The notes beneath the pieces are model-generated. The model was given only the letters and a program-made list of their open reading frames with translations, ran no database searches and was not told the origin of the DNA. From an uncultured Chlorobiales bacterium (GTDB lineage Bacteria > Bacteroidota > Chlorobiia > Chlorobiales > Chlorobiaceae), in assembly GCA_903929135.1 (NCBI GenBank), contig CAIYTH010000013.1:124001-188000 (forward strand): DNA of 64,000 nt, in the 5' to 3' direction. Shown here piece after piece: positions 41,617-54,789 of this stretch. The stretch's first letter is position 1. The number at the start of each line of letters is the position of its first letter. Both the position numbers and the translations under genes were made by a program.

Positions 41617-43032
41617 CTACTCACCCGTCACTTGCTTCCGGTACCAACCCCGGTCGATCTTTGCCGACCCGGCGATGGTCACCCACTCGGTTACCCGGTT
41701 GAACGCAACCGGTGTCTTCAGGCGCCCGAGCTCCGCGCCGATTATCGAAGCGATCTTCCCGTCATCAACTCCTGTTCCTGCAGCAACGCGGATCCATGCG
41801 CTTGGCCGCATGCCGTACTCCCTGTCGGGTACGGGCACGACAAGCGCCTCCTCGATGCCCGAAATGGCCGCCAGTGCCTTCTCGATCTCCTCCGGATGGA
41901 TGTTTTCTCCACCGGAGATGAACATGCTGTCCCGTCTGCCCAGTACCGTGAGCCTGCCGTCATCCGAAATCGACCCGACGTCGCCGGTATGGAACCACCC
42001 GTCGGCGTCCCGTGACCTTCTCACTCCGTTCGGTTCGAGGTATCCCAGGAAGAGGCACGGTCCCTTGACCAGGATTTCGCCGTCAGGGGAGATCGCTGCT
42101 TCCCGGAAGGGGAGGATGCGGCCGCTGTCCGTCGCAGGAGCATCGATCGGCCCGGTCGACGTGGAGACCTGGGAGCCCATCTCGGTCGAGCCGTAGGTCA
42201 GGTAGAGCGGGAGTCCCGAGGTGACGGCAGCTTCGAGCAGCGCGGCGCTTGCGGCGCTGCCGCCGAGGAGTATGGCCTTCATTCCCTTCAGGATGGCAGA
42301 CCCTTGAGTGGCGCGGAGCATCCGGTACAGCTGGGTCGGCACCAGCGAGAGATGGGTGACCGGCAGGGCCGTGACCGCCTCTTCGAGCGTCAGCCCAGGG
42401 CATCCGGCCGCGATAGCTCCTCCGCCGGCAAGGCACTTGAAGATCAGCGAGTAGCCGCCGATATGGTAGAGCGGCAGGGAGAGCAGCCAGCAGTCGCCGG
42501 GCCCGAACGGCAGGTTCTCAGCCGATCCCAGGGCGTTGTGCCAGTGGTTGGAAAAGGAGTGGAGGGCTGCTTTCGGGATGCCCGAACTCGCCGAGGTGTG
42601 GATGATGGAGACCGGGCGCTCGGAGTCTGCTGCTGCGGTGAAAGATGTCGCATCGCCTGCGAGCGCTGCGGTGACGAACTGCCGGAGCTCGACGGTAACG
42701 GTTGACGACGAGAAGCCTGCGGCAGGGTCGGTCAGCGTCATTCTGGGTGCCAGACGCTGCAGCACACCTTCGATGTGCACGGCCGGAAAGCGGTGGTTGA
42801 CCGGAGCGGCTACTGCACCGACGCGCAGCAGCGCCATCAGCGTGAGCAGCATCGGCGGGCTGTTCGGCGCGACGATGGCCACGATATCGCCCTTTCCGAT
42901 CCCTTCAGAAGCGAATGCGGCGGCGATACGGGCGCTCTCCGCATCGATCTCCGCGAATGACCAGCTCCTTCCGGGGGTGATCAGCGCAGGGTCGTTTCCG
43001 AACGATGTTGCGGCCCGGGCTACAATGTCCAT
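41617..43032 (-). CDS. menE: o-Succinylbenzoate-CoA ligase
   Basis: A 471-residue ANL adenylating enzyme that activates o-succinylbenzoate to its CoA thioester. The P-loop reads IIHTSASSGIPKAA, looser than the usual TSGTTGxPK. YGSTEMGS is the A5 motif, and GWFHTGDVGSISDDGRLTVLGRRDSMFISGGENIHP covers A7-A8 (only part of it quoted as one run elsewhere). The C-terminal catalytic Lys is in GSAKIDRG. ATG 43032 is chosen; the upstream frame overlaps menC. It is last gene of the menH-B-C-E run and overlaps menC by 13 bases. Confidence 0.92.
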   Translation of the reverse strand: MDIVARAATSFGNDPALITPGRSWSFAEIDAESARIAAAFASEGIGKGDIVAIVAPNSPPMLLTLMALLRVGAVAAPVNHRFPAVHIEGVLQRLAPRMTLTDPAAGFSSSTVTVELRQFVTAALAGDATSFTAAADSERPVSIIHTSASSGIPKAALHSFSNHWHNALGSAENLPFGPGDCWLLSLPLYHIGGYSLIFKCLAGGGAIAAGCPGLTLEEAVTALPVTHLSLVPTQLYRMLRATQGSAILKGMKAILLGGSAASAALLEAAVTSGLPLYLTYGSTEMGSQVSTSTGPIDAPATDSGRILPFREAAISPDGEILVKGPCLFLGYLEPNGVRRSRDADGWFHTGDVGSISDDGRLTVLGRRDSMFISGGENIHPEEIEKALAAISGIEEALVVPVPDREYGMRPSAWIRVAAGTGVDDGKIASIIGAELGRLKTPVAFNRVTEWVTIAGSAKIDRGWYRKQVTGE

Positions 43033-44111
43033 GACCTGACCGGGTTGAGCAGTTCTTTTCGCACGACGAGGCTGTTCCTCCATGCTGCGACAGGATCGGA
43101 ATCGCCTTGGGGCGTGCTGAACGGGATTTCGAGGAGATCTCCTCCGAGGAAGCTCGCCGTGTCGAGCCCGCATGCGGCCGGGGACGGCGAGGAGACGGCA
43201 GCCATCAGGGCGTACATGCCGAGGCTGATGCCGCTTTCGAACGCCGAGCTCAGCACTGCCGGCATCCCCATCCGGTATGCCGAGGAGGCAAGGTCGAGCG
43301 ATTTCGCAATCCCGCCGATGCGGTTCGGTTTGAGGATCAGGGCACCGACGGATTCGGTGGGCAGCTGGCCGAACAGCTCGGGTCGCTGCCAGAGCGTTTC
43401 GTCGAGTGCCGACCGGATGCCGGTCCGGCCATGGAAGTCGGGAATCATCGAAGCGTCCTGCAACGGCTCCTCGATGTAGGAGACGCTTCCTGCCGGCAAG
43501 GATCTGCCGAATTCGACGGCCGCTTCCAGCCCGAACGACTGGTTGGCGTCGAGCCTGAGTTCGGTCCTGCCGCCGAATGCCTTGTGGAAGGAGCGGATGC
43601 TGGCGACGGAGTCGTCGACGCGGTCGGCCCGAACCTTCAGCTTGAATGCCCTGAACCCCTGGGCATATCTCGTTTCGGCGCGTTTCATGACCGTCGTCGG
43701 GTCGCCGGTGAGCAGCGCGTTGACCGGTACCCTTTGCGCAGCCGGGAACGAACCGGGAAAAGAGGGGGTCGCGCCTGATCCGGCAGCTTCGAGGTTGATC
43801 AGGGCCATTTCGAGACCTGTCGCGACCGAGGGTGGGAGTTTCGCTCCGCCGATCAGCCGGCGGCGCTCTTCATGGGTGTTTCGATCGAGTCCGGCCAGCA
43901 CGGGGATGAACGCGGCAAGAGCCGTCTCGGCTTCATCCAGCGATTCGTCGTGCAAACCGGGAAGGGGGGCGATCTCTCCGAAGGAGGCCGCCCCCTCGCA
44001 CCTCAGGGAAAGGACCAGCCCTTCTCGTCTGTCGAGGAGGGCGCCTCTGACCGTGACTGGTCCGTTGAACGGAATGCCATACCGGCTGATGTCGGCATGG
44101 AGTGGCTTCAC
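43020..44111 (-). CDS. menC: o-Succinylbenzoate synthase
   Basis: A 363-residue enolase-superfamily dehydratase making o-succinylbenzoate from SHCHC. The barrel shows Lys in FKLKVRADR, metal ligands in LRLDANQ, IEEPLQD and LDETLW, and the second Lys in [10 protein letters not shown]. The length is normal. It overlaps menB by four bases (5' side) and menE by 13 bases (3' side), so the genes are tightly coupled. Confidence 0.93.
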
Positions 44112-44929
44112 GGGCGTTTAGGGAATTTGCCGAAATCGGGTTTGCGCTTTTCGACGAAGGCGTTGCGCCCCTCCTGGCCCTCTTCGCTCATGTAATAGAG
44201 CAGCGTGGCGTTGCCTGCAAGCTCCTGGAGCCCGGCCTGTCCGTCGCAGTCGGCGTTCAGCGCGGCTTTCAGGCAGCGGATGGCCAGCGGCGAGTTGGCG
44301 AGGATCTCGCGGCACCACTGCACGGTTTCGGCCTCGAGCCGCTCCAGCGGTACGACCGTGTTGACCAGCCCCATGTCGAGGGCTTCCCGGGCGTCATACT
44401 GTCGGCAGAGGTACCAGATTTCGCGGGCCTTCTTCTGGCCGACCAGGCGGGCCATGTAGCTCGCACCCCATCCGCCGTCGAACGAACCGACCTTTGGACC
44501 GGTCTGTCCGAACCTCGCGTTCTCGGCAGCGATGGTAAGGTCGCAGAGCATGTGCAGCACGTGGCCTCCGCCGATGGCGTAGCCGGCAACCATGGCGATG
44601 ACCGGCTTCGGGCAGGTCCGGATGTCGCGCTGGAAATCGAGCACGTTCAGCTTGTTGACTCCCTTCGCGTCGGCGTAGCCGGCGTTGCCGCGGATCTTCT
44701 GGTCGCCGCCCGAGCAGAAGGCCAGGTCGCCGGCGCCGGTCAGGATGATCACGCCGATCTCCTGGTCGTTGCGCGCGTCCTGCAGGGCATCGATCATCTC
44801 GTCCACGGTCTGGGGGCGGAACGCGTTACGCCTCTCGGGACGGTTGATGGTGATCTTGGCGATGCCTTCCGCCTTGTGGTAGAGAATGTCGGTGAACTCA
44901 CCGGCCGGTATCCAGTTGACAGTGCTCAT
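44108..44929 (-). CDS. menB: 1,4-Dihydroxy-2-naphthoyl-CoA synthase
   Basis: A 273-residue crotonase-fold enzyme that closes the second ring of the menaquinone naphthoquinone. Diagnostic segments are [24 protein letters not shown], and [15 protein letters not shown], and it ends [12 protein letters not shown], as MenB proteins do. ATG 44929 gives the normal length; the frame is open to 45325 inside menH. It is separated from the menH stop by a single base. Confidence 0.96.
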
Positions 44930-44930
44930 A

Positions 44931-45749
44931 TCAGGAGAGTTTTTGCGTGTTGATGAAAAGGGACAGGCGCTCGACGAAACGGGCGCGCTCCTCGACATGC
45001 AGGGTGTGGCCGCAGCCGTGGAAGATTTCAAGGGTTGATCCGGGGCACAAATTAACCATTTGGCGGCCAATCTCAACGAATTTGGCGTCTTTTTCGCCCG
45101 CGAAGAACATGATGGGAAGCCGGTTTCCGGCAAGTTCGTCCCACAGCGGAGGCTGGCTTCCGGTGCCGAGGAAACGCAGGGAAGCGGCAATGGCCCGGGG
45201 GTCGGCGATTCGTCGGGATTCGAAGATTGCAGGGAACGCCGGATGGGCTGCCAGCGTCTCGAACAGGGGCAGACGGTACCAGCGCTCCAGGAACCCGTCC
45301 GGGTCGTGCTCCAGTTCCGCGGCAAGCCTGTCGTCGTGCAGGCGCCTCTGACGCCGCTCCTCTTCAGTGCGCAGGCCCGGAGACGAAGAGATGATCACCG
45401 CGCTGGTGAACATCTCGGGATGGCGCAACGCCAGGGCGAGAGCGATCCTGCCGCCCATCGAATAGCCGACAAGAGCGCAGGGGCCATCAACCTGGCGACG
45501 CAACCCGGCAGCGAGTGCTTCGACGGTCTGCATGAAGAACCCTTCATCGGCCACTGCTGCAGGAGTGCAGGCCTCCCCATGACCAGGAAGGTCGACAAGG
45601 ATGCAGCAGTATCTGTTTTCGAGCAGCCGTGCGATCGGCAGCCAGTCGCCGCCTGACCCGAGGAACCCGTGCAGGAAGAGGATCCGGGGCAGTGAATGAT
45701 CTCCCACGGTGAAGAAACGAAGCGGAATATCCGGTGATGGTGCGGTCAT
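44931..45749 (-). CDS. menH: SHCHC synthase MenH (alpha/beta hydrolase)
   Basis: A 272-residue alpha/beta-hydrolase-fold enzyme eliminating pyruvate from [20 protein letters not shown] carries the oxyanion loop and [10 protein letters not shown] the Ser elbow. The Asp lies near FAGEKDAKF and the His in GCGHTLHVE. MenH assignment rests on these plus the neighbours, since the fold is common. It is first gene of the downstream men block. Upstream, where menD would be expected, lie oppositely oriented accessory genes. Confidence 0.88.
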
Positions 45750-46050
45750 GTTCTCTGATCGATAATCAAAGCCTCACGGAAACGATTCCGGGTGCATCAT
45801 GAAACGATTACAGAGCAATATATGAACCGGATGCCCGTGCAGGAAATCCATCAGCCGCGACAGTTCGAGAGCGTGACGAAAACAGAAATTGTGAAACCAG
45901 CGTCATTTGAGACCTTTTTGCATCTCATATGCGCGATTTTGTATATTGACGTGATATTTGCACCGTTACCACGACAGGGTATAGGCCTCGTGTTTCATCG
46001 AGGCGACCGTCGACGGCTTCGGGACGTCTTACCACCACGGAGGTTTTGCC
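45750..46050. other. Intergenic region between menH and the lipoprotein genes
   Basis: 301 bases between divergent genes. Plus-strand TTGCAT (45918-45923) and TATATT (45942-45947), 18 bases apart, form a likely promoter for the lipoprotein gene. On the minus strand only a weak TTCCTG/TATATT pair is seen ahead of menH. Confidence 0.5.
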
Positions 46051-46554
46051 ATGGAAAGGGCAATGAAATGCATCATCACCCTGTTTTTTGCAGCCCTGCT
46101 CGGCGCCTGTGCAACCGCGTACCAGCCGATCGGTCAATCGGGAGGATTCTATAACCGGAAAGTTGCCGAAAACATCTACATCATCGGATTCAACGGCAAC
46201 GGGTTCACCAACAACGAGCGGGTAAACGATTTTGCGACGCTCCGGGCCGCTGAAATCGGCGCAAAGCTCGGCTACACGCATTTCACCGTCGAAGGAACGC
46301 TGGACATGTCGAAAACAGAGCTGGTCGACATGGGCACCACGACCTCTACCTCCGGACGTGTCAATGAACACAGGAATTCCACCACATTCCACACGACGAG
46401 CACAACCACGAACAACACCTACACGGTCTACAGGCCCGGGGTTGAAATCAAGGCGGTTTACTCTGAAGGAGTGCCCAAAGGGCGGCACCTGGATGTATTC
46501 GTCGTACAGGATGTGATCAGGGAGATAAAAGGCAAGTACGAAATCACACCCTGA
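46051..46554 (+). CDS. CC0125/CC1285-like family lipoprotein
   Basis: A 167-residue protein with a lipoprotein signal (CIITLFFAALLGACATAY; lipobox LGAC). The body fits the CC0125/CC1285-type lipoproteins: AENIYIIGFNGNGFTNNERVNDF, then LRAAEIGAKLGYTHFTV. A Thr/Ser-rich low-complexity linker (TTSTSGRVNEHRNST, TTSTTTNNTYT) follows, ending with a conserved IREIKGKYEI. Function is unknown. A paralogue lies 148 bases downstream. Confidence 0.82.
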   Translation: MERAMKCIITLFFAALLGACATAYQPIGQSGGFYNRKVAENIYIIGFNGNGFTNNERVNDFATLRAAEIGAKLGYTHFTVEGTLDMSKTELVDMGTTTSTSGRVNEHRNSTTFHTTSTTTNNTYTVYRPGVEIKAVYSEGVPKGRHLDVFVVQDVIREIKGKYEITP

Positions 46555-46563
46555 CATCCTCGG

Positions 46564-46587
46564 CAGCCCGGTCAACAACCCGGGCTG
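46564..46587. terminator. Hairpin between the paralogous lipoprotein genes
   Basis: CAGCCCGG and CCGGGCTG form a perfect 8-bp stem with an 8-base loop, 10 bases after the first lipoprotein stop. There is no U-tract, so it is a weak or partial terminator. Confidence 0.5.
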
Positions 46588-46702
46588 ATGCATCTCACAT
46601 CAACCATACCCGCCGGTTACCATAAGCTTTGACCGGCGACGCACTGTCGAACAAGCTTTTTTCCGTAACAGGTCACTCTTACCCCTATCAGGAGGGCACA
46701 CC

Positions 46703-47200
46703 ATGGAAAGGGCAGTCAAATTCATCGCCACCGTGCTTTTTTCCGTCATTATCGGCGGATGTTCCACGCACAGGTCCGGCGAATCGGGGAACTTCTATCA
46801 TCGAAAAGAGGCCGATAACGTGTATGTCATCGGGTTCAACGGCAATGGTTTCAAAAACAGCCAGCGTGCAAACGATTTTTCGTTGCTCCTGGCCGCCGAG
46901 ATCGGCAGGCAGCTCGGTTACACCTACTTTGTCGTCAGGGAACAGCAGGGCGCTTCTCAGGAGCGGGTTGCAGAAAAGTGGCCTTCCGCAAGGAAGCCTG
47001 GCAGGGTCCGGGGTTCCGGAAAAAACGCATCATCCTGGACGACGCCCGGTACGCCGGACAACCCTTCCCAGGCAAACAAGCCCGGAGCCGAAATCAGGGT
47101 GCTCTACTCGAAAAAGGTACCCAAAGGCAGACCCCGGGAAGTCTACACCATTCATGATGTGATCAGGTTCGTCAAATCGAAGTACAACATCACCTCCTGA
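46703..47200 (+). CDS. CC0125/CC1285-like family lipoprotein, paralogue
   Basis: A 165-residue paralogue of the preceding lipoprotein. Both start MERA(M/V)K, have a lipobox (IGGC here), share NVYVIGFNGNGFKNSQRANDF and AAEIGRQLGYTYFVV, and end VIR-VKSKYNI. The middle linker differs entirely (Arg/Ser/Pro-rich rather than Thr-rich), so divergence is concentrated there. AGGAGGGC lies before ATG. It arose by tandem duplication. Function is unknown. Confidence 0.82.
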   Translation: MERAVKFIATVLFSVIIGGCSTHRSGESGNFYHRKEADNVYVIGFNGNGFKNSQRANDFSLLLAAEIGRQLGYTYFVVREQQGASQERVAEKWPSARKPGRVRGSGKNASSWTTPGTPDNPSQANKPGAEIRVLYSKKVPKGRPREVYTIHDVIRFVKSKYNITS

Positions 47201-47445
47201 AGGGTTTGCCGCTCCGGACGGAATAGCCGGCCACCTTTTCTGTTTTCAAAGGGATCTTTTTGTCAGATGACGACGCCACAGTAATTCTCCGGTGTCGATT
47301 CCGGCAGCAGGTCGGGTTTGAAGCCCTCCCTCACCTCCGCCCTCTCTGCCGGCGGAGATGCAACTTTGTTGTCATTATTCCTCTTTTTTGCCTGACAAAA
47401 CAGCCGGCTTCGTTCGGTAGCGAACAATCTGCACAACATTGACTG

Positions 47446-47474
47446 TTGACAGGCGGGGTGAATTTGCCTATCAT
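47446..47474 (+). promoter_or_regulatory. Near-consensus sigma-70 promoter of the methyltransferase gene
   Basis: TTGACA (47446-47451, perfect) and TATCAT (47469-47474, 4 of 6) are spaced by exactly 17 bases, about 85 bases before the methyltransferase ATG. Confidence 0.8.
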
Positions 47475-47479
47475 TTTAT

Positions 47480-47494
47480 CGAACATAGTGTTCG
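47480..47494. promoter_or_regulatory. Operator-like palindrome at the transcription start
   Basis: CGAACA-TAG-TGTTCG is a perfect 15-bp inverted repeat beginning five bases after the -10 box, where a repressor would block transcription. A second repeat, GTTCG-gtag-CGAAC, with the same half-site letters lies 20 bases before the -35 box, so cooperative binding is possible. The regulator is unknown and not in the neighbourhood. Confidence 0.55.
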
Positions 47495-47557
47495 TTAATT
47501 TACAGGTAACGCGATACCTCCGCCGCCGGAGGAAATTCATAAAAGGGGTGATGAACC

Positions 47558-48358
47558 ATGAAACGTCAAGGTATTTACAAGCCGACCGTCGAGGACGCCA
47601 TCGAAATCGGCGGGATCGAAACATTACATCCGGGCGGTTTTGCACTGACACGAAGAACAGCCGAACTCGCAGAATTGACGGAGGGGCTGAAAATCCTGGA
47701 TGTGTCAAGCGGGCGGGGAACCCAATCACTCTTTTATTCAAGGGAGTTCGGCGTCGAGGTGACGGGGGTAGATATTTCGGAGGAGATGGTGAGAACCTCC
47801 ACCTCGAATGCGGAAAAGGCAGGATTGGAGAACAGGGTGCGATTCAGGACCGGTGATTCGCAATCGTTGCCGTTCGAAGAGAACACCTTCGACGTGGTCA
47901 TCAACGAATGTGCCGTGGGAATTCCTGATGACTCCCAGAAAGTATTGAATGAAATGGTTCGCGTGGCAAAGCCGGGCGGCAGGATTCTGATACACGAATC
48001 GACGTGGCGGATGAAACTGTCGAATGAGGAGAAGGATGAGTTTTCCGAGCGATACGGTACGACGCCCCTGGAGCTTGCCGAGTGGCTTGGTATGCTGGAA
48101 AAGGCCGGAGTGAAAAACATCGTGTATGAGTTCGAGCAGTGGTCCAGGCCTGAAATGTTCTGGAAGATCAGGAAAGATCGCGATGTCAGCCATTGGTTCT
48201 TCACGATGAGCATCCCTGAAAAACTGAAAACCATGAAGCGGATCTATTCGAAGTTCGGCATGAGCGGCATCATGACGGTCATGACGAATGAAAGAGTGTT
48301 TTACCGGACCGTACTTCAGGGAAAGCTGGGATATGCGCTGTTCAAGGGAGAGAAATGA
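47558..48358 (+). CDS. Class I SAM-dependent methyltransferase
   Basis: A 266-residue Rossmann-fold methyltransferase. Motif I is LDVSSGRGTQS (a Ser replaces the usual first Gly), then GVDISEEMV, VRFRTGDSQSLPF, FDVVINECAV and RVAKPGGRILI. The N-terminal HPGGFALTRRTAEL segment and C-terminal helical region suggest a small-molecule methylase. The motif II-III pattern recalls arsenite- or UbiE-like enzymes, but the substrate cannot be assigned. Sampled G+C is about 50%, below the neighbours. It has its own promoter and operator. Confidence 0.85.
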   Translation: MKRQGIYKPTVEDAIEIGGIETLHPGGFALTRRTAELAELTEGLKILDVSSGRGTQSLFYSREFGVEVTGVDISEEMVRTSTSNAEKAGLENRVRFRTGDSQSLPFEENTFDVVINECAVGIPDDSQKVLNEMVRVAKPGGRILIHESTWRMKLSNEEKDEFSERYGTTPLELAEWLGMLEKAGVKNIVYEFEQWSRPEMFWKIRKDRDVSHWFFTMSIPEKLKTMKRIYSKFGMSGIMTVMTNERVFYRTVLQGKLGYALFKGEK

Positions 48359-48482
48359 TATCGTAGGCATCCGGGACACCGCGTTGATCTGAAATTTTCG
48401 GGAAGATGCCCGGATTTATCTCTGAATTGATAAGTTATGATTGAGTGGTGATCCCGGATTTCCTGAAACAACCCCATTGCAC

Positions 48483-48824
48483 ATGGCCTCAGATGCAGCT
48501 TTCGTCGAGTACGTCTGCGAGCAGATGAACGCGGCAGGTTCGATTGCATCCCGAAAGATGTTCGGAGAGTATGTGATCTATTGCGAAGGGAAGGTGGTCG
48601 CGCTTGTCTGCGACAATCAACTGTTCGTGAAACCGACATCTGCCGGTCGAGCTTTTGCCGGCCAGGTTGTCGAAGCGCCGCCATATCCCGGCGCGAAGGC
48701 TCATTTCCAGATCGGTGAGAAGCTGGACGACCGGGAGTGGATATCGAACCTCATCAGGATCACCGGCATGGAGCTTCCATTGCCGAAACCACGGAACCCA
48801 AAGCGTCCGGGGAGCACAACGTGA
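48483..48824 (+). CDS. TfoX N-terminal domain protein
   Basis: A 113-residue protein matching the TfoX/Sxy N-terminal domain: ASRKMFGEYVIYCEGKVVAL, then CDNQLFVKPT. Related proteins act in competence regulation, but single N-domain forms are widespread and of unknown role. The C-terminus is Pro/Lys-rich (LPKPRNPKRPG). ATG 48483 is chosen. The arylamine acetyltransferase gene starts 46 bases downstream. Confidence 0.8.
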   Translation: MASDAAFVEYVCEQMNAAGSIASRKMFGEYVIYCEGKVVALVCDNQLFVKPTSAGRAFAGQVVEAPPYPGAKAHFQIGEKLDDREWISNLIRITGMELPLPKPRNPKRPGSTT

Positions 48825-48870
48825 TCAGAACCTCTGCCTACTGCCATTGATCAAATTTCCAGCTCTTGTC

Positions 48871-49641
48871 ATGAAAGCCGGCAACTTCGATCTTCAGTCA
48901 TATTTTTCCCGGACAGGATTCAGGGGTGATGCCTCTGTGGATTTCCCGACGCTCAGGGAGATGATGCGGTGCCAGTTGTTTTCGGTGCCGTTTGAAAACC
49001 TTGACGTACAGGCCGGGAAGGTCGTCTCGCTGGTGCCGGAAGAGATCTGTTCGAAAATCGTCGAAGGGAGGCGAGGGGGCTACTGCTACGAGGTGAACGG
49101 GCTGTTTGCGATGGCACTCAAGGCTGTCGGCATTCCTTACCGCTTTGTCGCCGCACGGCCGATGACCTACCCGGTGCGTCGTCCAAAGACACACATGGCG
49201 ATCATCGCGACGATCGATGGCGTACAGTGGCTTTGCGACCTGGGGTTCGGGAGTTTCGGCATACGGGAACCGATCAACCTCGGCTGGCTCGATCGGGAGA
49301 TCCGGCAGGGTTTCGACATGTTCAGGCTTTCCCGGGTTTCGACGGATGATTACCTGTTGCAGTCATTGACCGACGGTGCCTGGAAGAACCTCTACGAATT
49401 CAATCTCTCTGCTCAGGAGTGGGTGGATTTCGAGCCGGCGAATTTCCTCAACTCGACGCATCCGGATTCGATTTTCGTCCGGAACCTGATGGTCGTCCTG
49501 CAGCATGAAACGGGAAAGAGGGTCCTGACCACCTATTGCTACAAGAACGTTTCGGAGGGCAGGACGGAGGAAAGAAAGGTCAGCCAGGAAGAGATCCCTG
49601 CGTTGCTGCTGGAGAAGTTTTCACTCATCTGCCCGCGCTGA
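48871..49641 (+). CDS. Arylamine N-acetyltransferase
   Basis: A 256-residue NAT enzyme, slightly shorter than the usual 275. The catalytic triad is intact: Cys72 in RRGGYCYEVNG, His108 in RPKTHMAI, and Asp123 in LCDLGFGSFG. It should transfer acetyl from acetyl-CoA to arylamines or arylhydrazines, often a detoxification step. ATG 48871 is the family start; the open frame to 48655 overlaps the TfoX gene. It is part of the plus-strand cassette inside the men locus. Confidence 0.9.
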   Translation: MKAGNFDLQSYFSRTGFRGDASVDFPTLREMMRCQLFSVPFENLDVQAGKVVSLVPEEICSKIVEGRRGGYCYEVNGLFAMALKAVGIPYRFVAARPMTYPVRRPKTHMAIIATIDGVQWLCDLGFGSFGIREPINLGWLDREIRQGFDMFRLSRVSTDDYLLQSLTDGAWKNLYEFNLSAQEWVDFEPANFLNSTHPDSIFVRNLMVVLQHETGKRVLTTYCYKNVSEGRTEERKVSQEEIPALLLEKFSLICPR

Positions 49642-49780
49642 ACCATCCCTGCGGGGGGTAAGCATGCGCGGAGGCGGGCGTTTGTCCGGTGCGGACCCGT
49701 TTTGAAAGAGGCTCGATCCCGGGGTACATGATCGTCATGCGCTGTCCCTTGACCCGATCTGAAACCACAGTTCTCAAAAC

Positions 49781-50242
49781 ATGGAATTGCTGAACGTTAC
49801 GACGGAAGAGCACGTGAGCCTTGCCCGGCAGCTTTTAGAAGAGTATGCGGCTTCACTCGATTATGAGCTCTGTTTCCAGAACTTCTCTGCCGAGCTCGCG
49901 CAGCTCCCTGGGGAATATTCTCCGCCATCCGGGGGCCTGCTGCTGGCATATCATGACGGCGAAGCGGTCGGTTGTGTCGCATTGCGCCGACTTGGCGAAG
50001 AGGTATGCGAGATGAAGCGGCTTTATGTCCGGCCGGGATTTCGGGGGTCGGGCATCGGCATTGCGTTGGCAGGGGCGGCAATAAGCCTGGCACGCCGGAC
50101 GGGGTACCGGAGGATGCGACTTGATACGGTCGGTTCAATGCACAAGGCGCAGATGATCTATGAATCATTGGGGTTCACCGACACGAAAGGATGCGGCTGC
50201 CATCAGGGTGAGGGTGTTCGGTGCATGGAGCTGGCGTTGTGA
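49781..50242 (+). CDS. GNAT family N-acetyltransferase
   Basis: A 153-residue acetyltransferase with GCVALRRLGEEVCEMKRLYVRP (strand 4-5), the CoA-binding RGSGIGIAL loop, and SMHKAQMIYESLGFT at the end. The substrate is unknown. The last gene of the inserted plus-strand run; its stop is 33 bases from the convergent menD stop. Confidence 0.87.
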   Translation: MELLNVTTEEHVSLARQLLEEYAASLDYELCFQNFSAELAQLPGEYSPPSGGLLLAYHDGEAVGCVALRRLGEEVCEMKRLYVRPGFRGSGIGIALAGAAISLARRTGYRRMRLDTVGSMHKAQMIYESLGFTDTKGCGCHQGEGVRCMELAL

Positions 50243-50275
50243 CATCATGCCTGCAAGCGCGGAACACGATCCGGT

Positions 50276-52021
50276 TCAGCTCGTCGCTATCCTGTCGGCG
50301 ATGTCGGCGATGGCTGCTTTCAGGCTGTTGTGGAGGCGGAGGTTTTCTGACCTCGTCGTGGTGACCTCGATCAGCGTCGATCGGCCATGCTTCATCGCCT
50401 CGGCGAGGTTGCCTGAAAATTCACGGTTGGTCGACGGGTTGGCGTAACCGAGGCCGAAGGTTTCTGCAGCCGCCCTGATGCTGAAGTTTTGCGGCGTGGC
50501 GAAGCAGGTTTCGAACACATCGGTCTCTGCGGAGACCGGCAGGAAGGAGAAGATGCCTCCGCCGTTGTTGTTCAGCACGACGACGATGACGCGGTTCCAT
50601 TCGTGGCCGAGCAGCGACAGGGCGTTCAGGTCGTGCAGGAACGAGATGTCGCCGATGAGCAGGGTCACCGGCTTGCCGAGTCCGGCGGAGAATCCTGCCG
50701 CTGAAGAGATGATGCCGTCGATGCCGCTGACTCCACGGTTCAGGGCGGTCTGCACCGCCTGGCCGGCGGATGGCGAGGCGTACAGGTCCATATCCCTGGC
50801 CGGCATGCTGTTCGACACGAACAGTCCGTATCCCTCATCCATCATCGAAGAAACGATCCTTGCCGCCGAGATCTCGTTGACCGGCATCCCGGGGGCGCAT
50901 GCGCCGGTTTCGACCGCTTCGGCTGCAGATGCGAAAAACGACTCCGGATCGATGGTTGCAGACGGCTGGCGGCACCCGGCAAGTGTTTCGGAAATGGCCG
51001 AAAGCGAAGCCTCGACCGTCAGGGTGACGTTATGGTCAGGTCCGAACCGTTCCGGGTGCTCCCTGACGACGACGTAGTGCCGCGGCTTCCATTTCCGGAT
51101 GGCCTGGCCGGGCTGCTTGCCGATCAGCGATCCGCCGAAATGGATCACAGCATCGGGCCTGTACCGTTCGATGAAGGCTTCAGACTGGAACGCAAGCTGC
51201 CAGGGGAGGCACTGTTTCGAGATCCTGAGCCCGGAGGTCAGGTCGGCGAAGAGCGGAATGCCGAGCGACCGAGCCAGAGATTCGACAGCCTCGGCATCGG
51301 CCCGGCTGTCGAGGCTGCCGGCCACGAACAGCGGGTTTGTCGCATCCGCAAGGATTTCCCTGAGGGCTGCGGTGCTTTCGGGAGATGTCGTTTTTGCCGG
51401 AGTTTCGAAGCGGCTCCAGGGGAGGCCGGAATCCAGCCACTCCCTGACCGGAGCGACCCAGGGGTGCCCGAGGTCGGGGGTTTCAGGTTCGAGCGGTTCG
51501 CGAAACGGCACGTTCAGGTGCACCGGGCCGGCGGGGGAGGCGAGGCTCCTCCTGACGGCGTGGCCAGCTGTCGACAGCAGTGATGCGAGGGGCGTGCCGG
51601 GGTCCGGGACCGGGAGCTGGATGTTCCATCGTGAGTAGCTCCCGAAGATATCATGTTGCCTGATGGTCTGGTTTGCGCCGGCCTCGATGAGTTCGAACGG
51701 ACGGTCAGCGGTCAGGAGGATCATCGGGCGGGCATCGGTCGATGCTTCAACAACCGCCGGGAAATAGTTTGCCACGGCGGTTCCCGAGGTGCAGACGAGC
51801 ACTGCCGGCATGCCGGTGGCGCGGGCGTAGCCGAGCGCGTAGAATCCGGCTGAACGTTCATCGGGGAACAAACGGTACCGTGCCGAAGGATTGCGCGCAA
51901 TGGCGATCGTCAGGGGAGTCGAGCGTGAACCGGGGGAGATGCAGAAGAACCCAGCACCCTGCCGGACGAGCTCCTCGACGAGGAGTTGGCTCCAGAGCGA
52001 GGTTACCTGCCTGTGGTTCAT
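50276..52021 (-). CDS. menD: SEPHCHC synthase MenD
   Basis: A 581-residue thiamine-diphosphate enzyme condensing isochorismate with 2-oxoglutarate. The N-terminal Pyr domain has FCISPGSRSTPLTIAI and the catalytic-region Glu near CTSGTAVANYFPAVVEAS. The C-terminal PP domain has GDISFLHDLNAL with NNNGGGIFSFLP. Its start overlaps the menF stop by four bases. It is the second gene of the upstream men block. Transcription from menFD would next enter the oppositely oriented cassette. Confidence 0.96.
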   Translation of the reverse strand: MNHRQVTSLWSQLLVEELVRQGAGFFCISPGSRSTPLTIAIARNPSARYRLFPDERSAGFYALGYARATGMPAVLVCTSGTAVANYFPAVVEASTDARPMILLTADRPFELIEAGANQTIRQHDIFGSYSRWNIQLPVPDPGTPLASLLSTAGHAVRRSLASPAGPVHLNVPFREPLEPETPDLGHPWVAPVREWLDSGLPWSRFETPAKTTSPESTAALREILADATNPLFVAGSLDSRADAEAVESLARSLGIPLFADLTSGLRISKQCLPWQLAFQSEAFIERYRPDAVIHFGGSLIGKQPGQAIRKWKPRHYVVVREHPERFGPDHNVTLTVEASLSAISETLAGCRQPSATIDPESFFASAAEAVETGACAPGMPVNEISAARIVSSMMDEGYGLFVSNSMPARDMDLYASPSAGQAVQTALNRGVSGIDGIISSAAGFSAGLGKPVTLLIGDISFLHDLNALSLLGHEWNRVIVVVLNNNGGGIFSFLPVSAETDVFETCFATPQNFSIRAAAETFGLGYANPSTNREFSGNLAEAMKHGRSTLIEVTTTRSENLRLHNSLKAAIADIADRIATS

Positions 52022-53460
52022 GTGGTCTGCTTCGTAATTGCCAGGATCTCGCCGATTTTCTGGTCAACCTCCTCCCATTCGGAATCCGGGTCGGAACCCT
52101 GGACCAGGCCCGCACCCGAATAGAGGCACACGCGGCCTTCGCTGACGAGCGCCGAACGGATGCCTACGGCGAACTCCGCGGCGTCCTTGCTGAACCAGCC
52201 GATCGGTCCTGCGTACCAGCCGCGGCAGAAGGGTTCGATGGAAAGGATGAGCTGCATCGACTCCTCCCTTGGCACGCCTCCGACCGCCGGGGTCGGGTGG
52301 AGCTGCCCCAGAACCGTGCTGTCGCTTCGGAATTCCGGTTTCAGCCGTGCCTTGCACCTGGTGTAGAGGTGTGCGAGGCTGCTGAGCTGCAGGACCTGGA
52401 CGGTCTCCTCCATATCGATGTCGCGGCAGACCGGCTGCAGTTCGCGGTAGATCGTATCCTTGACGAAGCGGTGTTCGCGCACGTCCTTTTCCGAGTTGAG
52501 CAGCAGTTCGGATGCCGTATGGTCGTCCGCCTTGAGGGCCTCCTTGGTCACGGTGCCGGCAAGGGCCTCGGTGAGGAGGAGGTCGCCGTCCCTGCGGTAG
52601 AGGCGTTCGGGCGTGAAGCTGACGAACGCCTGTCCCTCGACCGGCTCGAAATAGAACCTGTAGGTGGAGCTGTCGGGGAATGGATAGTTGATCAGGAAGC
52701 GGATCGCCGGTACCGGGCCCGAAAACTCGAGTTCGGTCTGCCGGGCGAGGATCACTTTCTCCACCTTGCCCGAGTCGAAGGTCTCGAACACCTGCCGGCA
52801 GTTCCTGACCCAGTCCTCGCGGTCGGGACTGTAGGAGACGTTCGTCAGTTCGGGAATCCCTGCGTCAGCGGGAAGCGTGGAGGGGTCAACCGATCCGATC
52901 GCATCGAGCAGCCTCGCGTATGCTGCGTCGCGCTCATCGCCGGGTTTCAGCCACAGGGAGCAGACCACCGAGGTCTTCGATCCGTAATGTTCGATGCGGA
53001 TGAGCGGCAGGATGAACAGCGCCGGGCTGAATCCGGACCAGAGCTCGTTCTGCTGCTGCATGTTGTTGAAGCAGAAGCCGCCGATGTATCGGGCATGGAA
53101 ATCTTTTTCCTGCATGGCTTTTTCGAGCAGGAGGAAGCTGCGTTCGTTGCGTCCGTTGCCGGTCACTTCGATGCGGTCCGCTTCTCCGATGCCCGCAGTC
53201 CACTCGCTTTTTTCCCGGTTCATCCAGTAGAGCTTCGGGAAAAGCTGCTGGCGGGAAAGCCAGGGGAGGGCATCCGGCATGTCGATATCGACGCGGAAGG
53301 TGGTGAGGTGAGGCAGGTTGCCGTCGACTTCCCGCTCCTGCTGCATGAAGGCAGCCTCGACCCTCTCCCTGAGGAGGATCAATGCCTGTTCTATCGAGGG
53401 GGCACTGGAGTCAGCCGGCATGTTGTTGTGCAGTTCTGTCATAAATCCCGTAAAAGTCAT
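52018..53460 (-). CDS. menF: Isochorismate synthase
   Basis: A 480-residue chorismate-using enzyme making isochorismate, the first committed step to menaquinone. The C-terminal catalytic domain carries KVILARQTELEF, HPTPAVGGVPRE and YAGPIGWFSKDAAEFAVGIRSAL, as in MenF/EntC. The N-terminus is the usual variable part. It is first gene of the men run, with menD following by a four-base overlap. Confidence 0.94.
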   Translation of the reverse strand: MTFTGFMTELHNNMPADSSAPSIEQALILLRERVEAAFMQQEREVDGNLPHLTTFRVDIDMPDALPWLSRQQLFPKLYWMNREKSEWTAGIGEADRIEVTGNGRNERSFLLLEKAMQEKDFHARYIGGFCFNNMQQQNELWSGFSPALFILPLIRIEHYGSKTSVVCSLWLKPGDERDAAYARLLDAIGSVDPSTLPADAGIPELTNVSYSPDREDWVRNCRQVFETFDSGKVEKVILARQTELEFSGPVPAIRFLINYPFPDSSTYRFYFEPVEGQAFVSFTPERLYRRDGDLLLTEALAGTVTKEALKADDHTASELLLNSEKDVREHRFVKDTIYRELQPVCRDIDMEETVQVLQLSSLAHLYTRCKARLKPEFRSDSTVLGQLHPTPAVGGVPREESMQLILSIEPFCRGWYAGPIGWFSKDAAEFAVGIRSALVSEGRVCLYSGAGLVQGSDPDSEWEEVDQKIGEILAITKQTT

Positions 53461-54691: not shown

Positions 54692-54714
54692 CATGTCGTC
54701 CTTTCGGAACAGTG

Positions 54715-54789
54715 CGGAGCTGACGGGGCTCGAACCCGCGACCTCCTACGTGACAGGCAGGCGCTCTAACCAAACTGAGCTACAGCTCC
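54715..54789 (-). tRNA. tRNA-Asp (GTC)
   Basis: On the minus strand a 75-nt cloverleaf is complete. Acceptor arms GGAGCTG/CAGCTCC, D-arm with TAGCTCAGTTTGGTTAGAGC, anticodon loop CTGTCAC giving anticodon GTC, and T-arm with GGTTCGAGCCCC. Discriminator G. The CCA end is not encoded. Confidence 0.96.

Follow-up and report, generated by a model that had tools for sequence, protein, structure and literature searches.

Hotspots of horizontal gene transfer (HGT) at which accessory genes turn over between two fixed core genes often lack an integrase or a tRNA, and a double-homologous-recombination model has been put forward for the integrase-free ones (Oliveira et al. 2017, PMC5635113). The same work reports that new genes rarely integrate within operons. 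In Pseudomonas aeruginosa, core defence hotspots combine a fixed core site with anti-phage systems that vary from strain to strain (PMC10250203). Here we analyse a locus in Chlorobiaceae in which accessory genes lie inside the menaquinone operon, between menD and menH. Our results favour, with good though not complete confidence, a model in which this joint is a recurrent, integrase-free hotspot for accessory and defence genes inside a split core operon.

Layout of the men locus and its cargo

The window, the whole 64,000-nucleotide stretch of DNA analysed here, is part of contig C13 of the draft genome G000 (2.14 Mb). It carries the full o-succinylbenzoate (men) menaquinone operon set, and all six genes, menF, menD, menH, menB, menC and menE, pass the NCBIfam curated cut-offs (Table 1). 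menF and menD overlap by 4 bp, and menH, menB, menC and menE abut or overlap one another, all on the minus strand. Between menD and menH lies an interval of 4,526 bp with six plus-strand ORFs, the first of which (lipoprotein A) is divergent from menH at a distance of 301 bp, and the last of which (GNAT) is convergent with menD, with 33 bp between the ends. The original prediction had described two minus-strand blocks, menF-menD and menH-B-C-E, separated by six plus-strand genes, and NCBIfam and Pfam annotation upholds its gene order, strands and coordinates.

Table 1. Features of the men locus and of the interval between menD and menH (window coordinates).
Feature	Position	Strand	Evidence
menE	41617..43032	-	TIGR01923, over cut-off
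menC	43020..44111	-	TIGR01927, over cut-off
menB	44108..44929	-	TIGR01929, over cut-off
menH (SHCHC synthase), first gene of downstream unit	44931..45749	-	TIGR03695, over cut-off
Promoter-like box, TTCCTGCA-N11-TTCATATATT	45817..45845	-	Conservation; 68-96 bp upstream of menH
Lipoprotein A, CC0125/CC1285 family	46051..46554	+	NF047637, 72 bits (cut-off 40)
Lipoprotein B, CC0125/CC1285-like	46703..47200	+	NF047637, 39.3 bits (just under cut-off of 40)
SAM-dependent methyltransferase, cargo	47558..48358	+	Profile match, below MenG cut-off
TfoX_N-domain protein, cargo	48441..48824	+	PF04993
Arylamine N-acetyltransferase (NAT)	48862..49641	+	PF00797
GNAT acetyltransferase, antisense cargo	49781..50242	+	PF00583
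menD (SEPHCHC synthase), upstream flank of hotspot	50276..52021	-	TIGR00173, over cut-off
menF, isochorismate synthase	52018..53460	-	TIGR00543, 373 bits, over cut-off

The six cargo genes differ in how widely they are shared. Lipoproteins A and B are tandem paralogues of the CC0125/CC1285 family (46051-47200), and relatives of lipoprotein B are present in loci L034, L036 and L109. Close orthologues of the methyltransferase were found only in G013 and G018 among the 26 genomes compared, in both cases at the same joint. We considered this gene as a candidate MenG and rejected it, given a TIGR01934 score of 72.9 bits against a cut-off of 158; the best UbiE/MenG-type match of the genome, which is much better, lies elsewhere, on contig C57. 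TfoX_N proteins occur at the joint in several Chlorobaculum genomes and away from it in G007, G017 and G033. The GNAT gene has atypical codon usage and was missed by codon-model gene calling. Pfam and NCBIfam annotation found no defence genes in the window's own cargo.

The cargo also differs in composition from its flanks. A lower G+C content in the methyltransferase than in menD, proposed from sampled lines in the original prediction, holds for the complete genes (0.517 versus 0.633), and the interval as a whole has a G+C content of 0.540. Values are 0.536 for lipoprotein A, 0.562 for NAT and 0.584 for GNAT, compared with about 0.64 for menB, menC and menE; third-position G+C is 0.63-0.73 in the cargo versus 0.71-0.86 in the men genes. 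NAT and GNAT depart only mildly, and because NAT is native and vertically inherited within the genus, low G+C is no proof that every piece of cargo is foreign.

The menD-menH joint in related genomes

We collected menD-centred loci from 40 relatives, adding separate menH contigs where needed, and measured ten adjacent gene pairs across them. Many of these genomes are draft MAGs, and hotspot status was judged locally, against nine neighbouring junctions. Two outgroups of the same order (G038 and G041) have overlaps of 1 and 14 bp between menD and menH, and the sister-genus genomes G028 and G022 have overlaps of 22 and 10 bp; the remaining unsplit sister-genus genomes have one 40-bp gap and one 91-bp gap (G032). 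The two genes are more than 800 bp apart in all 12 measured Chlorobaculum genomes, and G015, with a separation of 14.1 kb by contig coordinates, is a 13th, giving 13 of 13 among genomes with menD and menH on one contig. Seven further Chlorobaculum drafts have the two genes on different contigs, and a convincing menH was not found in G012. In the sister genus, 11 of 15 genomes are split, and split sizes over both genera range from 0.9 to 14 kb. Because the outgroups and two sister-genus genomes keep the overlap, the split is derived; it is ancestral to Chlorobaculum. Insertion into an older continuous operon, which the original prediction had proposed, is well supported by the overlaps in these four genomes.

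Three neighbouring junctions have remained closed. The spacing of menD and menF is -4 in nearly all relatives, with a maximum of 142 bp, that of menB and menC is -4 in 33 of 33 genomes, and that of menE and menC is at most 137 bp; in every genome measured, any insert at these three junctions is shorter than 150 bp. With these joints closed and menD-menH open, joint specificity is strong among the local junctions, menD-menH being the main site and menB-menH a second, lesser one. In 7 of 19 Chlorobaculum genomes the menB-menH joint contains 0.7-2.2 kb of additional sequence; the opening measures 1.3-2.2 kb in G020 (L100:3664-5387) and in the loci L101, L104, L105, L106 and L110. In G020 this insert is antisense and encodes a ParE-like toxin, a probable antitoxin and a lysine-2,3-aminomutase-like ORF, names that we read from the translations.

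The flanks menD and menH are the same in 13 Chlorobaculum and 11 sister-genus genomes, and the accessory content between them differs among genomes. Small recurrent cargo in Chlorobaculum comprises NAT (17 gene-called loci), a DinB-fold protein (14), an unknown 162-aa protein (11), TfoX_N (9), GNAT (7) and a rhodanese-domain protein that is co-directional with the men genes (7). Mod-YhcG-Res type III cassettes occupy the joint in G015, G008 and G009, another type III set in G020, a type I R-M system in G014 and a DUF4011/MTES_1575 protein in G011 that, like YhcG, is of a nuclease type (Hhe-like). G001, G008 and G020 have a HigA-M78 antitoxin, which is partially matched in G006, and G008 has one copy of an ISL3 transposase. 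Sister-genus genomes hold WD40 and NACHT-FGE STAND-type proteins (G026, G027 and G035), Fic (G030) or a co-directional uridine-kinase-like gene (G024, G029, G031, G033 and G036). By PADLOC or homologous matches, anti-phage systems recur at the joint in G008, G009, G011, G014, G015, G020 and G026. The insertion inferred in the original prediction is thus supported, and the comparison adds that the joint is split with changing cargo in two genera, which points to a recurrent hotspot and not to one cassette insertion. The prediction had also reasoned that the same arrangement with normal composition in all relatives would mark the interleaving as ancestral; in the loci compared, contents and length vary, and the interval has a lower G+C content than menD in 22 of 23 measured genomes.

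L055, L059 and L060 encode a WD40-repeat protein of very large size (1,722 aa in L060), the start of which is ParA-like. In L055 and L060 it is adjoined by a DUF4062-NACHT-FGE protein, and the two are a possible undescribed defence pair.

No integrase was found in the annotated part of the cargo, and no tRNA at the joint itself. The nearby tRNA-Asp(gtc), at window positions 54714-54789 between an HMA-domain gene and gltA, is constant in Chlorobaculum and lies outside the hotspot. Insertion driven by a tRNA or an integrase was rejected on these grounds, since the tRNA-Asp is constant beyond menF and the annotated cargo has no integrase; a site-specific integrative element would be expected to bring an integrase and to sit at an attachment site, for example a tRNA, and neither was found here.

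One part of the cargo has a different history. NAT lies near menD in most Chlorobaculum genomes with an assembled locus; it is absent from G003, G012 and G014, and in the sister genus it is absent or located elsewhere. A recent transfer of NAT between genera, considered because of 76% identity to a sister-genus copy, is not supported, as Chlorobaculum NATs group together in the tree (support 92/83). Given this grouping and the absence or different location of NAT in the sister genus, NAT is probably the oldest cargo of Chlorobaculum, settled beside menD once and early and lost from the three genomes without it. Because NAT looks vertically inherited, part of the cargo is stable and shows no turnover. 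The contigs of G005 and G019 (L035 and L037) break off at one common point some 170 bp upstream of NAT, suggesting that a repeat is present at that point.

The history of NAT also speaks for a rival account, in which Chlorobaculum received one ancient insertion at its base and vertical descent with gene loss followed, as in ordinary operon break-up. No measurable Chlorobaculum genome is unsplit, most of the assembled ones have NAT near menD, and the NAT tree follows the genus. We nevertheless consider this account unlikely: contents and length vary between genomes, close relatives hold different defence systems at the joint, the splits of the sister genus contain largely different cargo, and at least three state changes, or four when insert orientation is scored, are needed under parsimony on the menF tree.

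Exchange at the flanks and a promoter-like box

Two genomes bear on how a recurrent hotspot at this joint might exchange its cargo. By group assignment, G032 (L050) is a sister-genus genome. Its menF and menH cluster with that genus, each with an SH-aLRT of 99, although the menF placement is not decisive by the AU test (p = 0.066). Its menD nests inside Chlorobaculum, and placement in the sister genus was rejected (AU p = 4e-11). The menH and menB trees contained a few rows in the wrong frame and were used only for the placement of G032 menH. On this phylogenetic evidence, the G032 menD is a cross-genus gene replacement at the hotspot flank, and hence evidence of homologous exchange. In G020 (L100:1600-3673), a 143-aa ORF with PPLPPF-type repeats, which by our own reading is DUF559-like, is bracketed by two copies (96.8% identity) of the first 285 bp of menH. 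This duplication shows an insertion event that left full-length menH intact beside a truncated copy. We infer that flank recombination is the usual route of turnover; the G032 replacement, the G020 duplication and the tRNA-free joint fit the double-homologous-recombination model (PMC5635113).

The original prediction also held that menH-B-C-E should need a promoter of its own, and a conserved putative box upstream of menH (Table 1) supports this. In an alignment of menH upstream regions, TTCATATATT lies 68-77 bp before the menH start and is preceded by TTCCTGCA, and the box is present in G000, in members of both genera and in the empty-joint genome G032. In 22 of 37 genomes the menH upstream region has a match at 8 or more of the 10 positions, compared with a background of about 6% of random 200-bp windows. 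At least 9 of 10 match in 16 of 37, and none of the other five men genes has such a match upstream. The exact form TTYYTGCA-N11-TTCATATATT occurs in 4 of 37 genomes (G000, G021, G032 and G035), only just upstream of menH. A match of at least 8 of 10 lies 15-120 bp from menH in 20 of 26 genomes with antisense inserts (a partly assumed class that includes genomes with menH on another contig) versus 0 of 10 with an overlap or a co-directional insert. Since the motif was derived from these genomes, this comparison is descriptive. The box is missing or weak in the split genomes G014, G015, G020, G010, G025 and G023.

A generic sigma-70 scan found 2 candidates, no more than the 2.2 expected from shuffled sequence, so the case for a promoter rests on conservation, and a literature search returned nothing relevant on transcription start sites in Chlorobaculum. 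The geometry of the box (TTTCTG or TTCCTG, 17 bp, TATATT) would suit a housekeeping promoter with a weak -35, and we regard the box as a putative promoter. The bare 91-bp spacer between menD and menH in G032 carries it, and its presence in this otherwise empty joint suggests that insertion need not precede the promoter, or occur at all. Promoter uncoupling may have preceded insertion.

A model for the joint and its relation to known hotspots

These observations are consistent with a model in which an ancestral menFDHBCE operon was split at the menD-menH joint in Chlorobiaceae. The menHBCE unit would have gained a promoter of its own in the spacer, or would have had one there from the start, and this would have made menD-menH the most tolerant place in the operon. 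The joint could then have become an integrase-free hotspot for the build-up and turnover of accessory genes, the cargo being mostly antisense and often of defence or toxin-antitoxin type, with turnover probably driven by homologous recombination through the conserved menD and menH flanks. A bolder version, in which the joint is a selected docking site, the menH promoter is conserved across genera for insulating the essential quinone genes from docked cargo, and antisense transcription of the cargo tunes menFD, coupling defence load to quinone supply, is speculative and in our view improbable.

Still more doubtful is a functional interleaving, in which the methyltransferase, NAT and lipoproteins would act in quinone biosynthesis or antisense regulation. 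The position of the cargo between the two halves of the pathway, the retention of NAT near menD in most Chlorobaculum and the UbiE-like domain of the methyltransferase speak for it. Most cargo, however, is not common to the genomes, NAT is not a constant neighbour (elsewhere or absent in the sister genus, and missing from three Chlorobaculum genomes), and the methyltransferase scores far below the MenG cut-off in a genome with a far better UbiE/MenG-type match. A rearrangement, such as an inversion placing pre-existing genes between menD and menH, or an assembly artefact is very improbable: several related MAGs do have contig breaks inside the interval, but the split is also present in the single-contig genomes G003, G011, G016, G020 and G031, and synteny flanking the joint is intact.

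The recurrent-hotspot model has implications beyond this locus. One core-operon joint has been opened in two genera, and the other overlapping joints have mostly stayed closed. The empty-site genome G032, with its putative promoter, makes it possible to test whether an internal promoter turns an operon joint into a hotspot, and green sulfur bacteria could be surveyed for defence systems at this joint. A search of the literature collection used here found no earlier report of the menD-menH site. Like the integrase-free HGT hotspots of Oliveira et al. (PMC5635113), it has accessory genes that turn over between two fixed core genes; unlike them, it lies within a single biosynthetic operon, at a joint where the two genes ancestrally overlapped. 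It shares a fixed core site and varying anti-phage systems with the P. aeruginosa hotspots (PMC10250203) and differs from them in its family-wide range, in flanks that both come from one pathway and in mixed cargo with defence genes in some genomes only. The menD-menH joint is best read as a known kind of hotspot in an unusual place.
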